64,000 bases of DNA from Microbacteriaceae bacterium VKM Ac-2855. Its GTDB lineage: Bacteria > Actinomycetota > Actinomycetes > Actinomycetales > Microbacteriaceae. The first letter of the stretch is position 1; each line of letters opens with the position of its first letter. Shown here one piece after another: positions 8,211-27,395 of this stretch. Under the pieces are notes generated by a model. It searched no databases and was not told where the DNA came from. It saw only the letters and a program-made list of their open reading frames with translations. The stretch lies in NCBI GenBank assembly GCA_013204985.1, contig JABMLG010000006.1, positions 186,001 through 250,000 of the forward strand. The letters run 5' to 3'. The position numbers and the translations under genes were made by a program.

Positions 8211-8819
8211 CTATGTGCGTTCGGCTAGCCGACGGATGGCGTCGATGGTCCGGCGCAAACTGTCTGATCGAGTCGCGGCGTGCTCCGGCTGCCAATCGTT
8301 TTCCACAAAATTGGAGAGTATATTGTTGTATCCGAGTCCCTGCCGCAAATTGGTGCCGTCTCGCCGTAGTAACTGAGATTGGATGGCGCGCGGTGCTCTC
8401 GCAGCTTCGTTGAGGAGCCACGCCTTAGGATCGCCGATGTCATCGCATTCTGAGGGTGCCTGCAATCCCGGACGTTGCAGCAGATGGCGCAAGTTCTCGA
8501 TGTCCGCAATCAGCCAGGCTTCGACCTCCCGCACAGCGACCCTGATATGTAGATCGGGTGCTTCGAAAGAAACCCGACCCATCCAGTCATCAAGCAGGGT
8601 TGGCGCGCATTCTCTGTTGTCCAGATCGGTCAGGATAAGCATCGGCATGTGCTGGGATGCTTGAGCGAACTTCTGCACGTTAGAACGAAGGTATCCATAA
8701 CCGCCCTTGGATAAAACGGTTCCGATGATCAGATCTTCGTGAAACGGTTTGATGAGCCGACGTATGACGGCCTCAGAAAGTTCATCTTCGACACCGACGT
8801 TAAAATATCTTAGTCCCAC
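8211..8819 (-). CDS. TOPRIM-like protein (DUF4276/RloB type), partner of an OLD-like ATPase
   Basis: 202 residues. Seen: an acidic N-terminal motif VGVEDELSEAVIRRLI (Glu11/13/16), a GG-containing loop, then LILTDLDNREC with an Asp-x-Asp pair (65/67) and AVREVEAWLIADIENL. This order (Glu, then DxD, then an E-x-E-A-W segment) is that of TOPRIM-like domains in DUF4276/RloB proteins, which pair with ABC-type ATPases in antiphage modules such as AbiL, RloAB and, more distantly, PARIS. The GTG start overlaps the upstream ATPase gene by 10 bases, so the two are translationally coupled. GC content is visibly below that of the neighbours. Inferred role: effector nuclease or nucleotide-handling subunit. 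I saw no exact match to a named system. Confidence 0.62.
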   Translation of the reverse strand: MGLRYFNVGVEDELSEAVIRRLIKPFHEDLIIGTVLSKGGYGYLRSNVQKFAQASQHMPMLILTDLDNRECAPTLLDDWMGRVSFEAPDLHIRVAVREVEAWLIADIENLRHLLQRPGLQAPSECDDIGDPKAWLLNEAARAPRAIQSQLLRRDGTNLRQGLGYNNILSNFVENDWQPEHAATRSDSLRRTIDAIRRLAERT

Positions 8820-9967
8820 AGTGGCACAAGTCCGACATTCTCGGGTCTTGTCTTGGGCAGCATGACCTCAGCAACAGAGAATCCGGAATCGAGGAGACTT
8901 CGTTCATCGTCAGAAGCAAGCCGTGCCTTCGTTCCCTCCTTAGTCGCCTCAAGTAGCACGATCTGTCGGGGATCGATACCTTTATTGCTCAACAAAGCAT
9001 CGCTCTGTGTAGTCACCAATATTTGTCGACGCCGCCGGTTGGCGGCCTGGATTTGCTGAAGTAGAAGCGGGATCTCTCGCACGATTGCATCATTGAGCGA
9101 CAGCTCCGGCTCTTCCATCAGAAGAAGCGAGTCACTCTCTTGGAGTGACCAGAGTAGGGCGATCAGGCGAAGCGTCCCGTCCGAGAATGAGTCCTCCCGC
9201 TGCCATCCTGCATTTGGCCGGTAGTGAGCGTAGCGAGCTTCGAGATGCGGGCGGCCCGTTATCTCGTCCTTCGCAAATTGTAAGTTCGTGAACTGCGGCA
9301 CAGCTACTCGCAACGCGCTCTCAATGCGCCTGAGCCGGGCAGACCGTGTGCGTTCCGTCGACCGAGCGATCCTCTCGAGAAATCCCTGCCCGAAGGGGTC
9401 ATCCTCGACCCGATTTCCGCCAATTTGCTCAGAGTACTTGAGCAATTGAGGGACCAGGTGGACGAAGGAAATGTCGGAGAAGAAGTCTGCAAGTTCTCGA
9501 AATCGGGCGTTGGCCTGGATCTGTTCGAGACTCGTTTGCGTCAAGAGGGTACTGTCGGCGCTATCGATGTCCTGAGGTCTATTGAGAATGAGTTCGTCCT
9601 TATGGTGAACAATTTCTCGCGAGACGATTACTCGCTGGGCACCTTTTCCTTCAAGCTTGAACCCTAGTTCGTAATGCCATTCGGCTGTTTGGCTGTCGAT
9701 GTCATCTGATATCCATACTTCAATGGCGACTTCGTTGTCTTTGCGTGCGTGCAGGCACCGAATTCGACGGACTCCGCCGCGCGCTGATACGGCTTTTTGA
9801 AGTCCGCCGCCGTCGGTGCGTGCGACATCTCGGAGGAACCTGAGTGCGTCAAGCAGGTTGGACTTCCCTGAAGCGTTGGGTCCGATGATGAATGTGCGTT
9901 CACGAAGCTCGACGTCGAGGCTCCGAAAGTTTCGCCAGTTCTTCAACTTGATGCGCGTAACGTACAT
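8810..9967 (-). CDS. OLD/AAA15-21-type ABC ATPase, candidate defence sensor subunit
   Basis: 385 residues. The N-terminal strand MYVTRIKLKNWRNFRSLDV leads into Walker A GPNASGKSN (residues 29-37). A coiled middle section follows (about 140-230). The ABC-like signature is FSDGTLRL (261-268), Walker B LLLMEEPE (281-288), the D-loop SLN, and LVTTQS (318-322) replaces the usual switch histidine with Gln321. This is the COG1106/AAA15-21 family layout. The gene starts at an ATG after AGGGAG and overlaps the TOPRIM-like gene. Base composition near 50 % GC against about 70 % around it indicates recent acquisition. No integrase, transposase or obvious flanking repeat was seen; the 179 bases upstream (9968-10146) hold no recognisable gene. 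Confidence 0.82.
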   Translation of the reverse strand: MYVTRIKLKNWRNFRSLDVELRERTFIIGPNASGKSNLLDALRFLRDVARTDGGGLQKAVSARGGVRRIRCLHARKDNEVAIEVWISDDIDSQTAEWHYELGFKLEGKGAQRVIVSREIVHHKDELILNRPQDIDSADSTLLTQTSLEQIQANARFRELADFFSDISFVHLVPQLLKYSEQIGGNRVEDDPFGQGFLERIARSTERTRSARLRRIESALRVAVPQFTNLQFAKDEITGRPHLEARYAHYRPNAGWQREDSFSDGTLRLIALLWSLQESDSLLLMEEPELSLNDAIVREIPLLLQQIQAANRRRRQILVTTQSDALLSNKGIDPRQIVLLEATKEGTKARLASDDERSLLDSGFSVAEVMLPKTRPENVGLVPLWD

Positions 9968-22663: not shown

Positions 22664-23602
22664 ATGCCAGAAATCACCCCCACAGCGGCACGCGCTCTCG
22701 GGCGCAGCGGTTTGAGCGCCTTTCCGCTGGCCCTCGACGGGTCCGTCTTCGGTTGGGCAGCCGGGGCCGACGCCACCGCGGAGGTATTGGACGCCTTCGT
22801 CGCGGCGGGAGGCACCCTCATCTCCACCGCCGATCACTATGCCACCGGGCGCAGCGAATACATGATCGGACGCTGGCTGGCCGACAACGCGTGCCGCGAG
22901 CAGCTCGTTATAGCGACGAAGATCGGTCGGCATCCGGATGCGCCCGGCCTCTCCGCGCGCAGCATCCCGTTCGCGATCGAGGCGTCGCTCGAGCGCCTCG
23001 CCGTGGAGCGGATCGATCTGCTGTCGTTCGACGGCGAGGATCCCCGGGTGCCGATCGAGGAGAGCCTGCGTGCGGTGCAGCCGTTCGTGCAGGACGGTCG
23101 CGTGGGTGCCATCGCGGCGGCGAACTACAGCGGCGCCGGTCTCGCGGCGGCGGAGGACATCGCCCTTCAGCACGGGCTTCCGCGCTTCGCCGTCACCCTC
23201 AACGTCTACAACCTGATGGAGCGTCGCGGCTACGAGCAGGGGGTCGCCCCGGATGCTCGTCGCCTCGGGATGGACACGTTGGCGCGCCTTCCGCTCGCGA
23301 GCGGGTATCTCACGGGCGTCTATCGCGATAAGAACAAGCGACCGGCGTCGTCACTGTTCGAGGCCGCCCTCGCCTACATCGGCCGACGTGGCTCCAAGGT
23401 GCTCGACGTGCTGAGGAGCGTCGCGCTCGCTCACGACACGAACGAGGGGTCCGTCGCGATCGCGTGGCTGCTGGCACGTCCGGGCATCGCGGCCGCGGTC
23501 GTCCGGGCCCCGGATGCGGAATCTCTCGCCGAGGTCTTCGCCGCCGCGACCCTCATCCTCTCGCCCGACGAACTCGCCCGGCTCGACAAGGTCTCCGCTT
23601 AG
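22664..23602 (+). CDS. Aldo/keto-reductase-fold protein with incomplete catalytic tetrad
   Basis: 312 residues, full TIM-barrel length. AKR landmarks: an N-terminal GLSAFPLALDGSVFGW, LISTADHYATGRSEYMIG, LVIATKIGRHP, ARPGIAAAVVRAPDAESLAE and LSPDELARLDKVSA at the end. The catalytic Tyr (59) and Lys (86) are present, but the Asp of the DTAxxY motif is Ser54, and the usual His after IDLL is missing (SFDGED). Activity on carbonyls is therefore doubtful. The gene is 87 bases upstream of the STING-like gene, on the same strand. A diverged relative lies at 33465. Confidence 0.82.
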   Translation: MPEITPTAARALGRSGLSAFPLALDGSVFGWAAGADATAEVLDAFVAAGGTLISTADHYATGRSEYMIGRWLADNACREQLVIATKIGRHPDAPGLSARSIPFAIEASLERLAVERIDLLSFDGEDPRVPIEESLRAVQPFVQDGRVGAIAAANYSGAGLAAAEDIALQHGLPRFAVTLNVYNLMERRGYEQGVAPDARRLGMDTLARLPLASGYLTGVYRDKNKRPASSLFEAALAYIGRRGSKVLDVLRSVALAHDTNEGSVAIAWLLARPGIAAAVVRAPDAESLAEVFAAATLILSPDELARLDKVSA

Positions 23603-23689
23603 ACCCCGTGCCCTGCTCGCGGGGCGGCGCTGGGTGCGGTCGGCTGCCATGCTGGCCGCACGGAGATCCGCGTCGCCGAGAGGAACCGA

Positions 23690-24580
23690 GTGCCTGCCGA
23701 GCCGGCCCCTGATGCATCCGCCCCGAATCCGTCGTTGCTGCACTCCTTCGCACTGTCGGTCGGCGACATGTGGCGCGACTACCATCTGCCGACGAAGGTG
23801 GTCTTCTCCGTCCTTCTGACGTCGATCATCGGCTCGCTCGTCCTGACGACCTGGCCCGAGATCGCGCCCGCGCCGCCCTGGTGGGTCCGCCTGCTGTTCG
23901 GCGATCCGTTCCGCGCACTGTTGACGTTCGCCATCGCGTTCTTCATCGCGGTGCGCTTCTACTCCCGCGCTCGTGAGGGGGTCGTCGCCGGCGACGAGCA
24001 TTACAGCATCGCGCGGGGACTCTCGTTCGGCTACTTCAAGAATTTCCTGGTGATGGCGCTTCTCTACGCCGACAAGGAGAACCGCACGGTGCGGATCTTC
24101 CAGCCGAGGAGCCTCGAGGAACTCACGCTCTACGACACCGTGATCGCCCCGCACGTTCGCGCGCAGTATCGGGCCGAGATGGTGGATGTCACGGCGAACC
24201 TCGGTCCGCACGTCAAACGTTCCCGACGCACCATCCTGTCGCTGCAGTCGCCGACCCCGACCGGTGGTGCGACTCCGTGGTTCTTGTTCGACGCACCGAG
24301 CACGCTGTTCACTGTCGGTGACTTCTACGACGCGATCAATCGCCAGCGGATGAGCGACGGTAAGGCTCCTCTGGCGAATGAGACGATCGCGGAGTATCAG
24401 GGCGGCCAGATCACCCGGTTCTACGAGCAGCTGAAGTTCTTGTTCACCGAGGATTCCAGCCTCGCCGGTGTCGACGACATCGTCGGCACCGTCGAGGAGC
24501 TCCGGCGCCTCTACGAGAGACGTCTCGAGTGGGTCACCTATCAGCAGTTGGTCGAAGAACTGCAGCTTCCTCCGGGGTGA
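23690..24580 (+). CDS. Membrane protein with prokaryotic STING-like cyclic-dinucleotide-binding domain
   Basis: 296 residues. Two membrane helices (about 37-55, VVFSVLLTSIIGSLVLTTW; and about 73-90) precede a soluble domain from about residue 105. Landmarks match STING in order: the stem helix ARGLSFGYFKNFL (108-120; compare the GLAxxYYxGYL segment of human STING), a strand VRIFQPRSL, then FLFDAPSTLFTV (198-209; compare ATPLQTLF in human STING and D-x-P-T-T-[IL]-F in bacterial STING), and the helix QITRFYEQLKFLFTED (240-255). Asp201 would be the residue that favours c-di-GMP in bacterial STINGs. STING effectors normally sit beside a CD-NTase in CBASS operons; none is in this window. GTG start behind GAGAGG. 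The call rests on motif order, not a search. Confidence 0.7.
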   Translation: MPAEPAPDASAPNPSLLHSFALSVGDMWRDYHLPTKVVFSVLLTSIIGSLVLTTWPEIAPAPPWWVRLLFGDPFRALLTFAIAFFIAVRFYSRAREGVVAGDEHYSIARGLSFGYFKNFLVMALLYADKENRTVRIFQPRSLEELTLYDTVIAPHVRAQYRAEMVDVTANLGPHVKRSRRTILSLQSPTPTGGATPWFLFDAPSTLFTVGDFYDAINRQRMSDGKAPLANETIAEYQGGQITRFYEQLKFLFTEDSSLAGVDDIVGTVEELRRLYERRLEWVTYQQLVEELQLPPG

Positions 24581-24702
24581 GGGGGCCGTGGGCCGCGCGT
24601 CCTCGCCGAAGGACAGCTGAGCTTGACGAGGAAGAATGTGCCCGACGGCTCCTTAGACGGCCTGTTCTGCCTCGCCGAAGGAGAAACGCCGACCCCGGCG
24701 CG

Positions 24703-24722
24703 GGTCCTGCATCGGCAGGACC
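24703..24722. terminator. Hairpin between STING-like and alpha-glucosidase genes
   Basis: GGTCCTGC-ATCG-GCAGGACC, a perfect 8-bp stem in G/C-rich sequence, lies between two convergent genes. It could end both transcripts, although no T tract is present. Confidence 0.5.
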
Positions 24723-24753
24723 GGCCCCGGGGCCTGGGAAGTCGGAAGGTCCG

Positions 24754-26481
24754 TCAGTACCCGGCGCGCCGCCGCAGCACGCGCGCCTCCCAGGGCCCGA
24801 GTGTCGAGCGCGCGGGGTCGGTGGCGTTCCCGATCACGAGTTCGGCGTCCTCCCACAGCTCCAACAGCTCGACCTCCGACTCCGAGCCGGAGACGTTGCC
24901 GACGACGAGCAGTTCCGCATCCGCTCCGGTGCGTGTGAACGCGAAGAGCGTCGGATGCTCGGCTTCGAGCAACTCGAACCGGCCCAGCTGAACCGTCTCG
25001 TCCTCATGACGCAGCGCGATGAGGCGGCGGTAGTAGTCGAAGACCGATCGCTCGGCGGCGCGGTCGGCCGCGACGTTCACCGTCGAGTAGTTCGGATTCA
25101 CCGGGATCCACGGCTCGCCGGACGTGAAGCCGGCGTGCGCCGACGCATCCCATTGCACGGGGGTGCGGGCATTGTCGCGGCTCTGCGCGCGCAGCCCGGC
25201 CAGGATCGCTTCGGGATCCTCGCCTCTCTCATCGACCGCCTCGGCGTAGTAGTTGATGGATTCGATATCGCGGAAGTCCTCGATCGTGGAGAACGGCACG
25301 TTGGTCATACCGATCTCCTCACCCTGGTAGATGTACGGCGTGCCGCGCTGCAGGTGCATCAGCGTCGCCCAGAGCGTCGCCGATTCGTAGCGCCAGCGCC
25401 CGTTGTGCTCGGCGCCGTCGTCGCCGAATCTCGAGACGAGCCGCGGCTGGTCGTGATTGTTCAGGTACAGGCTGTTCCAGCCGCGCTCGGCGAGCCCGTC
25501 CTGCCAGCGCGCGAGATTCGCCTTCAGCGCCACGAGATCCAGTGGGATCGGGTGGAACTTGTCGGTGCCGTGGTCGATGCCGACGTGCTCGAACTGGAAG
25601 ACCATGTCGAGTTCCTGCCGCGCCGGGTCGGTGACCAGCTCCGCCTCCGCGAGCGTCACACCGGGCATCTCACCGACGGTGATGTACTTCCCCTCGCGGC
25701 CCGCGAACACCGCGAGGTGCATCTCGTGCAAGAACTCGTGCAGCCGTGGGCCGACGCCTCCGACGATGCCGTTCGCGTCATCGTCGCCGTCGATCTGCTC
25801 GAGACGCTTCGAGATCAGGTTGATCACGTCCATGCGGAAGCCGTCCACACCACGGTCGAGCCACCAGTTCATCATCGCGTAGACCGCCTGGCGCACCTCC
25901 GGGTTCTCCCAGTTGAGGTCGGGCTGCTGCACCGCGAACAGGTGCAAGAAATACTCCCCGCTGTCGTCGCGGGTCCACGCCGGCCCCGAGAAGTACGAGC
26001 GCCAGCCGTTCGGTTCGATCCCGGCATCCACGGCGGCTTCCGCCTCGGCGCCGCGCGGGTCGTCCCCGCGGCCCGGACGCCACCAGTACCAGTCGCGCTT
26101 GGGCGAATCCGGGCCCGACGACGATTCGACGAACCAGGCGTGCTCGTCGGAGGTGTGATTCACCACCAGGTCCATCACGATCTTGATGCCGCGCTCGTGC
26201 GCTTCGGCCAGCAGCAGATCGAATTCCTCGAGCGAGCCAAACAGCGGATCGATGTCCTGGTAGTCGGAGATGTCGTAGCCGTTGTCGTGCTGCGGCGAGG
26301 GGTACACGGGCGAGAGCCAGACGACGTCGACCCCCAGCTCGGCGAGGTGATCGAGTTTCGAGCGGATGCCGCCGAGGTCGCCGACGCCGTCGCCGTTCGA
26401 GTCCGCGAACGAACGCGGATAGATCTGGTAGACCACGGCGCTCGTCCACCACGGGACGCTCGTTTCGGGAAGGCTGCTCAC
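24754..26481 (-). CDS. GH13 alpha-glucosidase / oligo-1,6-glucosidase
   Basis: 575 residues. GH13 regions: YQIYPRSFADSNGDGVGDLG near the start, region I DLVVNHTSDEH (about 104-114), nucleophile Asp218 in GFRMDVINL, acid/base Glu271 in VGEMPG and the third carboxylate Asp344 in NNHDQPR. This is the oligo-1,6-glucosidase/sucrose-isomaltase-like subfamily, which releases glucose from short alpha-linked sugars in the cytoplasm. The GTG start overlaps the upstream permease stop by 4 bases (GTGA). Last gene of the sugar operon. Confidence 0.92.
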   Translation of the reverse strand: MSSLPETSVPWWTSAVVYQIYPRSFADSNGDGVGDLGGIRSKLDHLAELGVDVVWLSPVYPSPQHDNGYDISDYQDIDPLFGSLEEFDLLLAEAHERGIKIVMDLVVNHTSDEHAWFVESSSGPDSPKRDWYWWRPGRGDDPRGAEAEAAVDAGIEPNGWRSYFSGPAWTRDDSGEYFLHLFAVQQPDLNWENPEVRQAVYAMMNWWLDRGVDGFRMDVINLISKRLEQIDGDDDANGIVGGVGPRLHEFLHEMHLAVFAGREGKYITVGEMPGVTLAEAELVTDPARQELDMVFQFEHVGIDHGTDKFHPIPLDLVALKANLARWQDGLAERGWNSLYLNNHDQPRLVSRFGDDGAEHNGRWRYESATLWATLMHLQRGTPYIYQGEEIGMTNVPFSTIEDFRDIESINYYAEAVDERGEDPEAILAGLRAQSRDNARTPVQWDASAHAGFTSGEPWIPVNPNYSTVNVAADRAAERSVFDYYRRLIALRHEDETVQLGRFELLEAEHPTLFAFTRTGADAELLVVGNVSGSESEVELLELWEDAELVIGNATDPARSTLGPWEARVLRRRAGY

Positions 26482-27395
26482 TTGATCGAACCTCGCATCA
26501 CTCCGCTGACCACCCAACGCTGCGCGAACAGGTAGACGATCAGCAACGGGGCCATCGCCATCAGGTAGGAGGCGAAGGCGACGGTGTAGTTGGTGTTGAA
26601 CTGTCCCTGGAAAACGTACTCCGCGAGGGGCAGGGTGCGCGCGGCCGGATCCGAGAGCACCACCAGAGGCAGGATGAAGTCGTTCCACGCCCAGACGCAG
26701 GTCAGGATGCCCACGGTCGCGTTCATCGGGCCGAGCAGCGGGAAGATCACCGACCAGTAGGTGCGCCAGGTCGACGCGCCATCGGTGCGCGCCGCCTCCT
26801 CGAGTTCGATCGGGATCGAGCGGATGTAGGCCGTGTAGATGAACGTGTTCAGCGAGAGCCCGAAGATCGCGTAGAGCAGGATCAGGCCGACCTGGTTGTC
26901 CAGGCCCAGCAGAGCGGTCTCCTTGACCACCGGCAGCATGATGATCGGGAAGGGGACGAACACCGCGGCGAGCAGGTAGAAGTAGACGCCCTTGAAGAAC
27001 GGCTTGTGCAGGTTGCGCGCGACCGCGTAGGCGACCATCGAGTTCGAGAACAGCGTCAGCACGACGGCGCCGACCGTGATCAGAGCGGTGTTGACGAAGG
27101 CCTGCGGGAACTTCGTCGCCGTCCACGCTTCGGCGAAGTTGCCCCAGTTGATCGACGTGGGCAGTTCGAAGCCGGTTCCGGTGAGCTGGTCCGGGGTCTT
27201 CAATGCCGTGACGACCGCGAAGTAGATCGGCAGGATGATCGTGAGCGAGCAGACCGCGATCAACGCGGTCGCCCACCAGTTGATCCGCCGCGTGTCCTGC
27301 GAGATCTTGCCGTTGCGAGGGGTCTCGACCGCGGCGAGGGCCGAGGTGGAGGGGTTCGTGTCGTCGAGCGGACCGGCCGCCTGGGTCATGGCCAT
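26478..27395 (-). CDS. Carbohydrate ABC transporter permease (MalG-like)
   Basis: 305 residues with six membrane helices. The EAA loop that contacts the ATPase is IELEEAARTDGASTWRTYWS, followed by VIFPLLGP. Length and the start NWWATALIAVCSLTIILPIY are typical of MalG-type CUT1 permeases. Its ATG overlaps the stop of the first permease by one base (TGATG), and its stop overlaps the alpha-glucosidase start, so all are co-translated. No ABC ATPase gene accompanies the set. Confidence 0.92.
   Translation of the reverse strand: MAMTQAAGPLDDTNPSTSALAAVETPRNGKISQDTRRINWWATALIAVCSLTIILPIYFAVVTALKTPDQLTGTGFELPTSINWGNFAEAWTATKFPQAFVNTALITVGAVVLTLFSNSMVAYAVARNLHKPFFKGVYFYLLAAVFVPFPIIMLPVVKETALLGLDNQVGLILLYAIFGLSLNTFIYTAYIRSIPIELEEAARTDGASTWRTYWSVIFPLLGPMNATVGILTCVWAWNDFILPLVVLSDPAARTLPLAEYVFQGQFNTNYTVAFASYLMAMAPLLIVYLFAQRWVVSGVMRGSIK

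Follow-up and report, generated by a model that had tools for sequence, protein, structure and literature searches.

A standalone STING gene was found in a 64-kb stretch of the genome of Microbacteriaceae bacterium VKM Ac-2855, which is referred to here as the window. Profile comparisons, the predicted fold and relatives in three other genomes support the assignment of the encoded protein as a STING homologue with two transmembrane (TM) helices. The gene lies between ordinary chromosomal genes and no linked cyclase was detected, in agreement with a preliminary description made from the sequence, which had proposed an orphan TM-STING in a housekeeping setting. It is a 296-residue open reading frame (ORF) with a GTG start at positions 23690–24580 on the + strand, and GAGAGGA sits a few bases 5' of the start codon. 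The translation contains the four motifs quoted in that description, in the order given there. The explanation we favor, with a probability of about 0.55, is that this is a standalone, membrane-anchored STING: a cyclic dinucleotide (CDN) supplied in trans would bind in the dimer pocket, followed by oligomerization and disturbance of the membrane.

Homology to STING is seen in several comparisons. Alignment of the soluble part to that of FsSTING, the STING of a member of the Flavobacteriaceae (PDB 6WT4), gave a local score of 92, whereas shuffled sequences had a mean of 28.1 and a maximum of 54 (n=500). Overall identity between the two proteins is 21%. When 177,635 PDB sequences were searched with phmmer, FsSTING was placed first with an E-value of 0.0012 and the runner-up followed at 0.59. 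In addition, the monomer structure model has the STING fold. A chance resemblance was rejected on the basis of the shuffled alignments, the phmmer ranking and the profile and fold comparisons. Another two-TM family was also considered and rejected, the sole other weak profile matches being TARP (E 0.067) and ECF_S_folT (E 0.032), which are far below cut-off. Thus the likeness to STING that had been read from the motifs holds in sequence, fold and relatives.

The protein is divided into an N-terminal membrane part and a soluble domain. Two hydrophobic segments were identified by hydropathy, residues 32–59 (positions 23783–23866) and 66–94 (23885–23971), which correspond to helices 33–54 and 73–100 of the model, where they are of low confidence. 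The two N-terminal membrane helices of the preliminary description are therefore present, and their fusion to a STING domain is the TM-STING architecture. Neither Pfam nor PADLOC gives a match to a TIR domain at E<=10; the hydrophobic segments are found instead. The predicted CDN-binding domain spans approximately residues 103–290 (positions 23996–24559), where VIA-align matches residues 101–293 and PF20300 (prok_STING) residues 108–222.

The residues that would form the ligand pocket are conserved. Published FsSTING numbering equals locus numbering minus 3, as fixed on F92, F94, I97, R151, R153 and D169 of PMC8748872. Using this numbering, F119, R180 and D201 match FsSTING F92, R153 and D169, and all three are kept in the four loner proteins, that is, the window protein and its three relatives. 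F119 ends the sequence GYFKNF (residues 114–119, positions 24029–24046), R180 lies in the lid, R177-S-R-R180 (24218–24229), and D201 begins DAPSTLF (residues 201–207, 24290–24310). In the FsSTING pocket, 3'3'-cGAMP is contacted by stacking of F92 and R153, and specificity is attributed to D169 (PMC8748872). Because these counterparts are kept, the better guess for the ligand is a CDN that contains guanine, for example 3'3'-cGAMP.

The lid itself is less easily classified. Class I STINGs are described as having an RX(Y/F) lid, whose arginine confers specificity for c-di-GMP, with Tyr or Phe at the position of FsSTING R153, while class II STINGs have an RXR lid (PMC8748872). The window protein lacks the class I motif. 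The position of FsSTING R151 is ambiguous: it is occupied by S178 in the MAFFT alignment and by R177 in the HMMER alignment, which has a one-residue insertion, and only with this insertion does R177-S-R179 align to the class II motif. In all three relatives this position is a proline and RXR is absent, the lid being PPRRT as opposed to RSRRT in the window protein. The suggestion that c-di-GMP is the signal needs amending. It has no evident maker, as a profile search for GGDEF found no match in the window's own genome (8 of 14 control genomes were positive), and the class I arginine is not clearly kept, although the aspartate said to favor c-di-GMP is present in all four loners.

The isolation of the gene was assessed across the whole genome, which comprises 4.7 Mb in 26 contigs, with the STING gene on the 283-kb contig C23. 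The PF18144 search detected a single CD-NTase, which is on contig C1, and PF01909 matches this gene and a 158-residue frame on C12. A PADLOC cyclase profile was added because the Pfam families SMODS and NTP_transf_2 miss the partner cyclase of FsSTING; this profile, PDLC00784, matches only the C1 gene. The cyclase beside FsSTING (L039:6666–7760) has no SMODS or NTP_transf_2 match at E<=1, yet it is matched by PDLC00784 at E 3.8e-128, so that screens using Pfam only can miss STING partner cyclases. The absence of a CD-NTase near the gene, as originally noted, now extends to the whole of C23. By contrast, the genome-wide CD-NTase search that had been proposed revealed that the genome is not cyclase-free, as it carries a CD-NTase/Cap15 pair on C1. 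An effector of a cyclic oligonucleotide-based antiphage signaling system (CBASS) is encoded beside a CD-NTase, and this arrangement is found neither in the window nor at the loci of the three relatives.

These relatives, all gammaproteobacterial, were found at loci L036, L037 and L038. A contig scan using an alignment that included FsSTING found four loci, whereas an earlier scan with a single protein found none. All loners are longer at the C-terminus than FsSTING. At L036, the neighbors are a + strand frame and a sigma-70-like gene on the − strand. At both L037 and L038 the gene has an AdoMet decarboxylase gene on one side and mnmC on the other (families were checked for L036 and L037; L038 and the other neighbors of the relatives were named by eye and by pairwise identities). 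The L037 and L038 STINGs are 67.3% identical, within the range of eight neighboring genes (59.7–95.2%), and their ratio of nonsynonymous to synonymous substitution rates (Ka/Ks) is 0.117, with Ks 2.23. It follows that STING is an old resident of this lineage under purifying selection. By eye, neither a defense gene nor a common partner gene is directly beside any of the four loner loci. The stretch D-x-W-[RK]-D-Y-H-x-P-x-K, located 5' of the first TM helix (window positions 23765–23797), is conserved in all four loners and is mostly missing from FsSTING. No relatives were found in plasmids, phages or viral contigs. The genome that contains L037 also encodes a CBASS-like pair, an SMODS/AGS-C cyclase with a SLATT_4 effector (L040:1501–3364), adjoining a frame that resembles the specificity subunit of a type I restriction system.

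In the genus, the gene is present in only one of 15 genomes. It lies between an aldo/keto reductase (22664–23602, + strand) and a convergent ORF ending in an alpha-glucosidase (24754–27276, − strand), the 5' part of which is probably outside the true gene; both were named by eye. In each of the 14 other genomes, 29–95 bp separate the ends of the alignments to the reductase and the glucosidase, compared to 1158 bp here, and the extra DNA, positions 23603–24753, consists of the STING gene and its flanks. This empty site in the congeners, together with the single occurrence, indicates a one-gene insertion in the window's genome. The reductase is 82% identical to the window's in one congener and 57–62% identical in the rest. 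The GC content at third codon positions (GC3) of the STING gene is 0.845 and that of the adjoining reductase 0.847; its overall GC content is 0.637 versus 0.682 for the window. Matches to the window protein in congeners are weak (E >= 0.089), and a search of 396 genomes of the order gave five weak, partial matches besides the genome itself (E 0.0022–0.0098). PF20300 found no match above cut-off in 396 genomes of the phylum and two weaker ones (E 0.0019 and 0.0070). This null result says little on loners, since the window's own genome also fails the cut-off.

A mechanism can be proposed by borrowing steps from work on STING and TM effectors. The two N-terminal helices would hold a cytosolic STING domain, whose dimer pocket, with F119, R180 and D201 among its residues, would bind a CDN. 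By analogy, ligand binding would close the lid and cause the STING domains to oligomerize; the oligomers would then cluster the TM pairs and disturb the membrane, resulting in growth arrest or cell death. As the loner has no cyclase of its own, the CDN would come in trans, whether from an unlinked bacterial enzyme, from an invader or from outside the cell.

Several observations weigh against the standalone receptor. The PF20300 score of the window protein is 16.2 bits, below the Pfam cut-off of 27.1, which is a detection threshold and not a biological feature; thus the Prok_STING search that had been suggested gave a match under threshold for this protein, while the relatives at L037 (30.9) and L038 (34.1) pass and that at L036 (25.9) falls below. 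PADLOC has no match for the window protein and no significant match for any of the four loners (best E 0.06, for L038). Confidence in the modelled membrane part is low, the predicted local distance difference test (pLDDT) values being 41–69 in ten-residue blocks over residues 11–100. The whole-genome searches with PF18144, PF01909 and PDLC00784 found no CD-NTase on C23, and these leave room for an unusual cyclase. Likewise, there is no CD-NTase beside the genes at L036, L037 and L038, but the downstream flank of L038 reaches the contig end after 2.8 kb; and none was detected in G1160 and G1162, two of the three genomes of the relatives, all three of which are metagenome-assembled and of unstated completeness. 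No GGDEF was found in the gammaproteobacterial genomes, a weak result from motif-only sampling of 361,684 out of ~3.6 Mb, 498,087 out of ~3.1 Mb and 137,395 out of ~2.6 Mb, with possible overlaps; GSEEF and SGDEF strings in these samples have contexts unlike GGDEF domains, and some EAL-like strings also occur. Finally, the gene is present in one of 398 sampled genomes of the family, and only four loner members are known in this analysis.

One alternative is that the protein is a second effector of the CBASS on C1, so that a CDN made upon infection activates Cap15 and, in trans, STING. The C1 CD-NTase (PDLC00788, E 2.7e-84), the one clear CD-NTase of the genome, is followed by Cap15 (PF18153, E 1.2e-14) and the two are a complete, separate CBASS (L032:5547–13303). 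The flanking MobA/VirD2-like relaxase and ParB-like genes indicate that this CBASS is probably on an integrated mobilisable element. The best PDB matches of the C1 CD-NTase are 6e0k (RmCdnE) and EfCdnE; 6E0L, the sister entry of 6e0k, is named RmCdnE in PMC10442399. Hand reading of a printed alignment shows that the C1 cyclase keeps the lid-1 Asn, which selects uracil in CdnEs (PMC10442399), but that the (R/Q)xW motif is missing; the predicted product is therefore a uridine–purine one. Such a product would be a poor match to a guanine-type pocket, and di-pyrimidines are the products of three further CdnEs that have Cap15 as a partner gene (PMC10442399). However, a staphylococcal CdnE03–Cap15 pair makes 3'2'-cGAMP (PMC10686824), and the cyclase of FsSTING is a distant relative of the C1 cyclase (57.1 bits with PDLC00788; 26% identity over 178 aligned positions). 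The relatives speak against such a pairing: G1160 and G1162 have a loner STING and no detected CD-NTase, and the cyclase of G1161 is an SMODS/AGS-C enzyme of another PADLOC family, encoded with a SLATT_4 effector on a 68,337-bp contig separate from the 107,429-bp STING contig. We therefore regard a shared CBASS signal as unlikely. The window contains a pair of its own, an AAA_21 ATPase and a DUF4276 protein, that matches the candidate defense system HEC-01 (8211–9967, − strand; PDLC04180, E 3.6e-153 and PDLC04194, E 7e-56), located 14 kb from the STING gene. The GC3 values of this pair, 0.61 and 0.59 versus 0.86–0.89 in three nearby frames, suggest that it was probably acquired.

Somewhat less probable still is a role outside immunity, in which the protein would be a housekeeping receptor controlling a membrane process in response to, for example, c-di-AMP from DisA or c-di-GMP. 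DisA is presumably present in this genome. Two gammaproteobacterial genomes have long kept the gene at one housekeeping locus, with a low Ka/Ks, and no defense or shared partner gene was seen beside the four loci, which is consistent with such a role, but the patchy presence in the genus, with an empty site in 14 genomes, is typical of defense genes, and the window's genome has no GGDEF match. The missing cyclase and low profile score could also be those of a decaying CBASS operon that lost its cyclase. This is very improbable, as the frame is full-length, the pocket residues are kept in all four proteins, the gammaproteobacterial pair is under purifying selection, and remnants that arose independently would be unlikely to stand equally isolated at three distinct chromosomal positions; by eye, the flanks show no cyclase debris. 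A Panoptes-like inverse guard is equally improbable; here a resident nucleotide would hold STING off until a phage sponge or nuclease removes it. In Panoptes, a 2TM nucleotide receptor can work inversely, and such systems seem to guard CBASS (PMC12657218), which is present in this genome, but the STINGs in the literature examined are activated by ligand.

By fold the window protein is a STING, but its gene setting is not that of a CBASS effector. The sources consulted portray STING in bacteria as an effector of CBASS that works with the cyclase of its operon (PMC12424679, PMC8748872). FsSTING follows this description, its gene being directly downstream of its CD-NTase, while the window gene is not so placed. 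The TM-STING architecture with two helices was already known in bacteria, and its mode of action is described as unclear (PMC10732462). Relative to TIR-STING (Cap12; SfSTING, PcSTING and MySTING), the window protein lacks the TIR domain, the class I RX(Y/F) lid and the CD-NTase neighbor. The Cap15 and S-2TM-beta effectors of CBASS and Panoptes likewise combine two TM helices with a soluble nucleotide receptor, and the membrane action of the loner is likely to be analogous to theirs. However, the receptor of Cap15 is a beta-barrel and not a STING fold, and a separate gene encodes the Cap15 of this genome.

A search of open-licence literature by title and abstract opening, limited in coverage, returned no report of an orphan or standalone STING in bacteria. 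None of the four loners has a significant PADLOC match, and the window and L036 proteins also miss the Pfam cut-off, which defines a blind spot in detection. The three other bacteria with a similar lone gene suggest that some bacterial STINGs work outside known defense operons. A parallel is provided by the standalone STINGs of choanoflagellates and fungi, which are also without a linked or detected cyclase, although these are eukaryotic and the fungal ones are fused to PNP (PMC12424679). Two choanoflagellate STINGs bind 3'3'-c-di-GMP and are proposed to be detectors of foreign bacteria (PMC12424679). We tentatively suggest, as a possibility somewhat short of even odds, that the loners constitute a bacterial class of standalone STING, passed down vertically within one gammaproteobacterial lineage and spread laterally as a single gene, which functions outside CBASS and reads a CDN without a cognate cyclase, as proposed for choanoflagellates. 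Its members make both TM-STING action and the bacterial use of STING for signals from elsewhere testable and, if a conserved lone TM-STING is confirmed, the separation of receptor and cyclase would already exist in bacteria.
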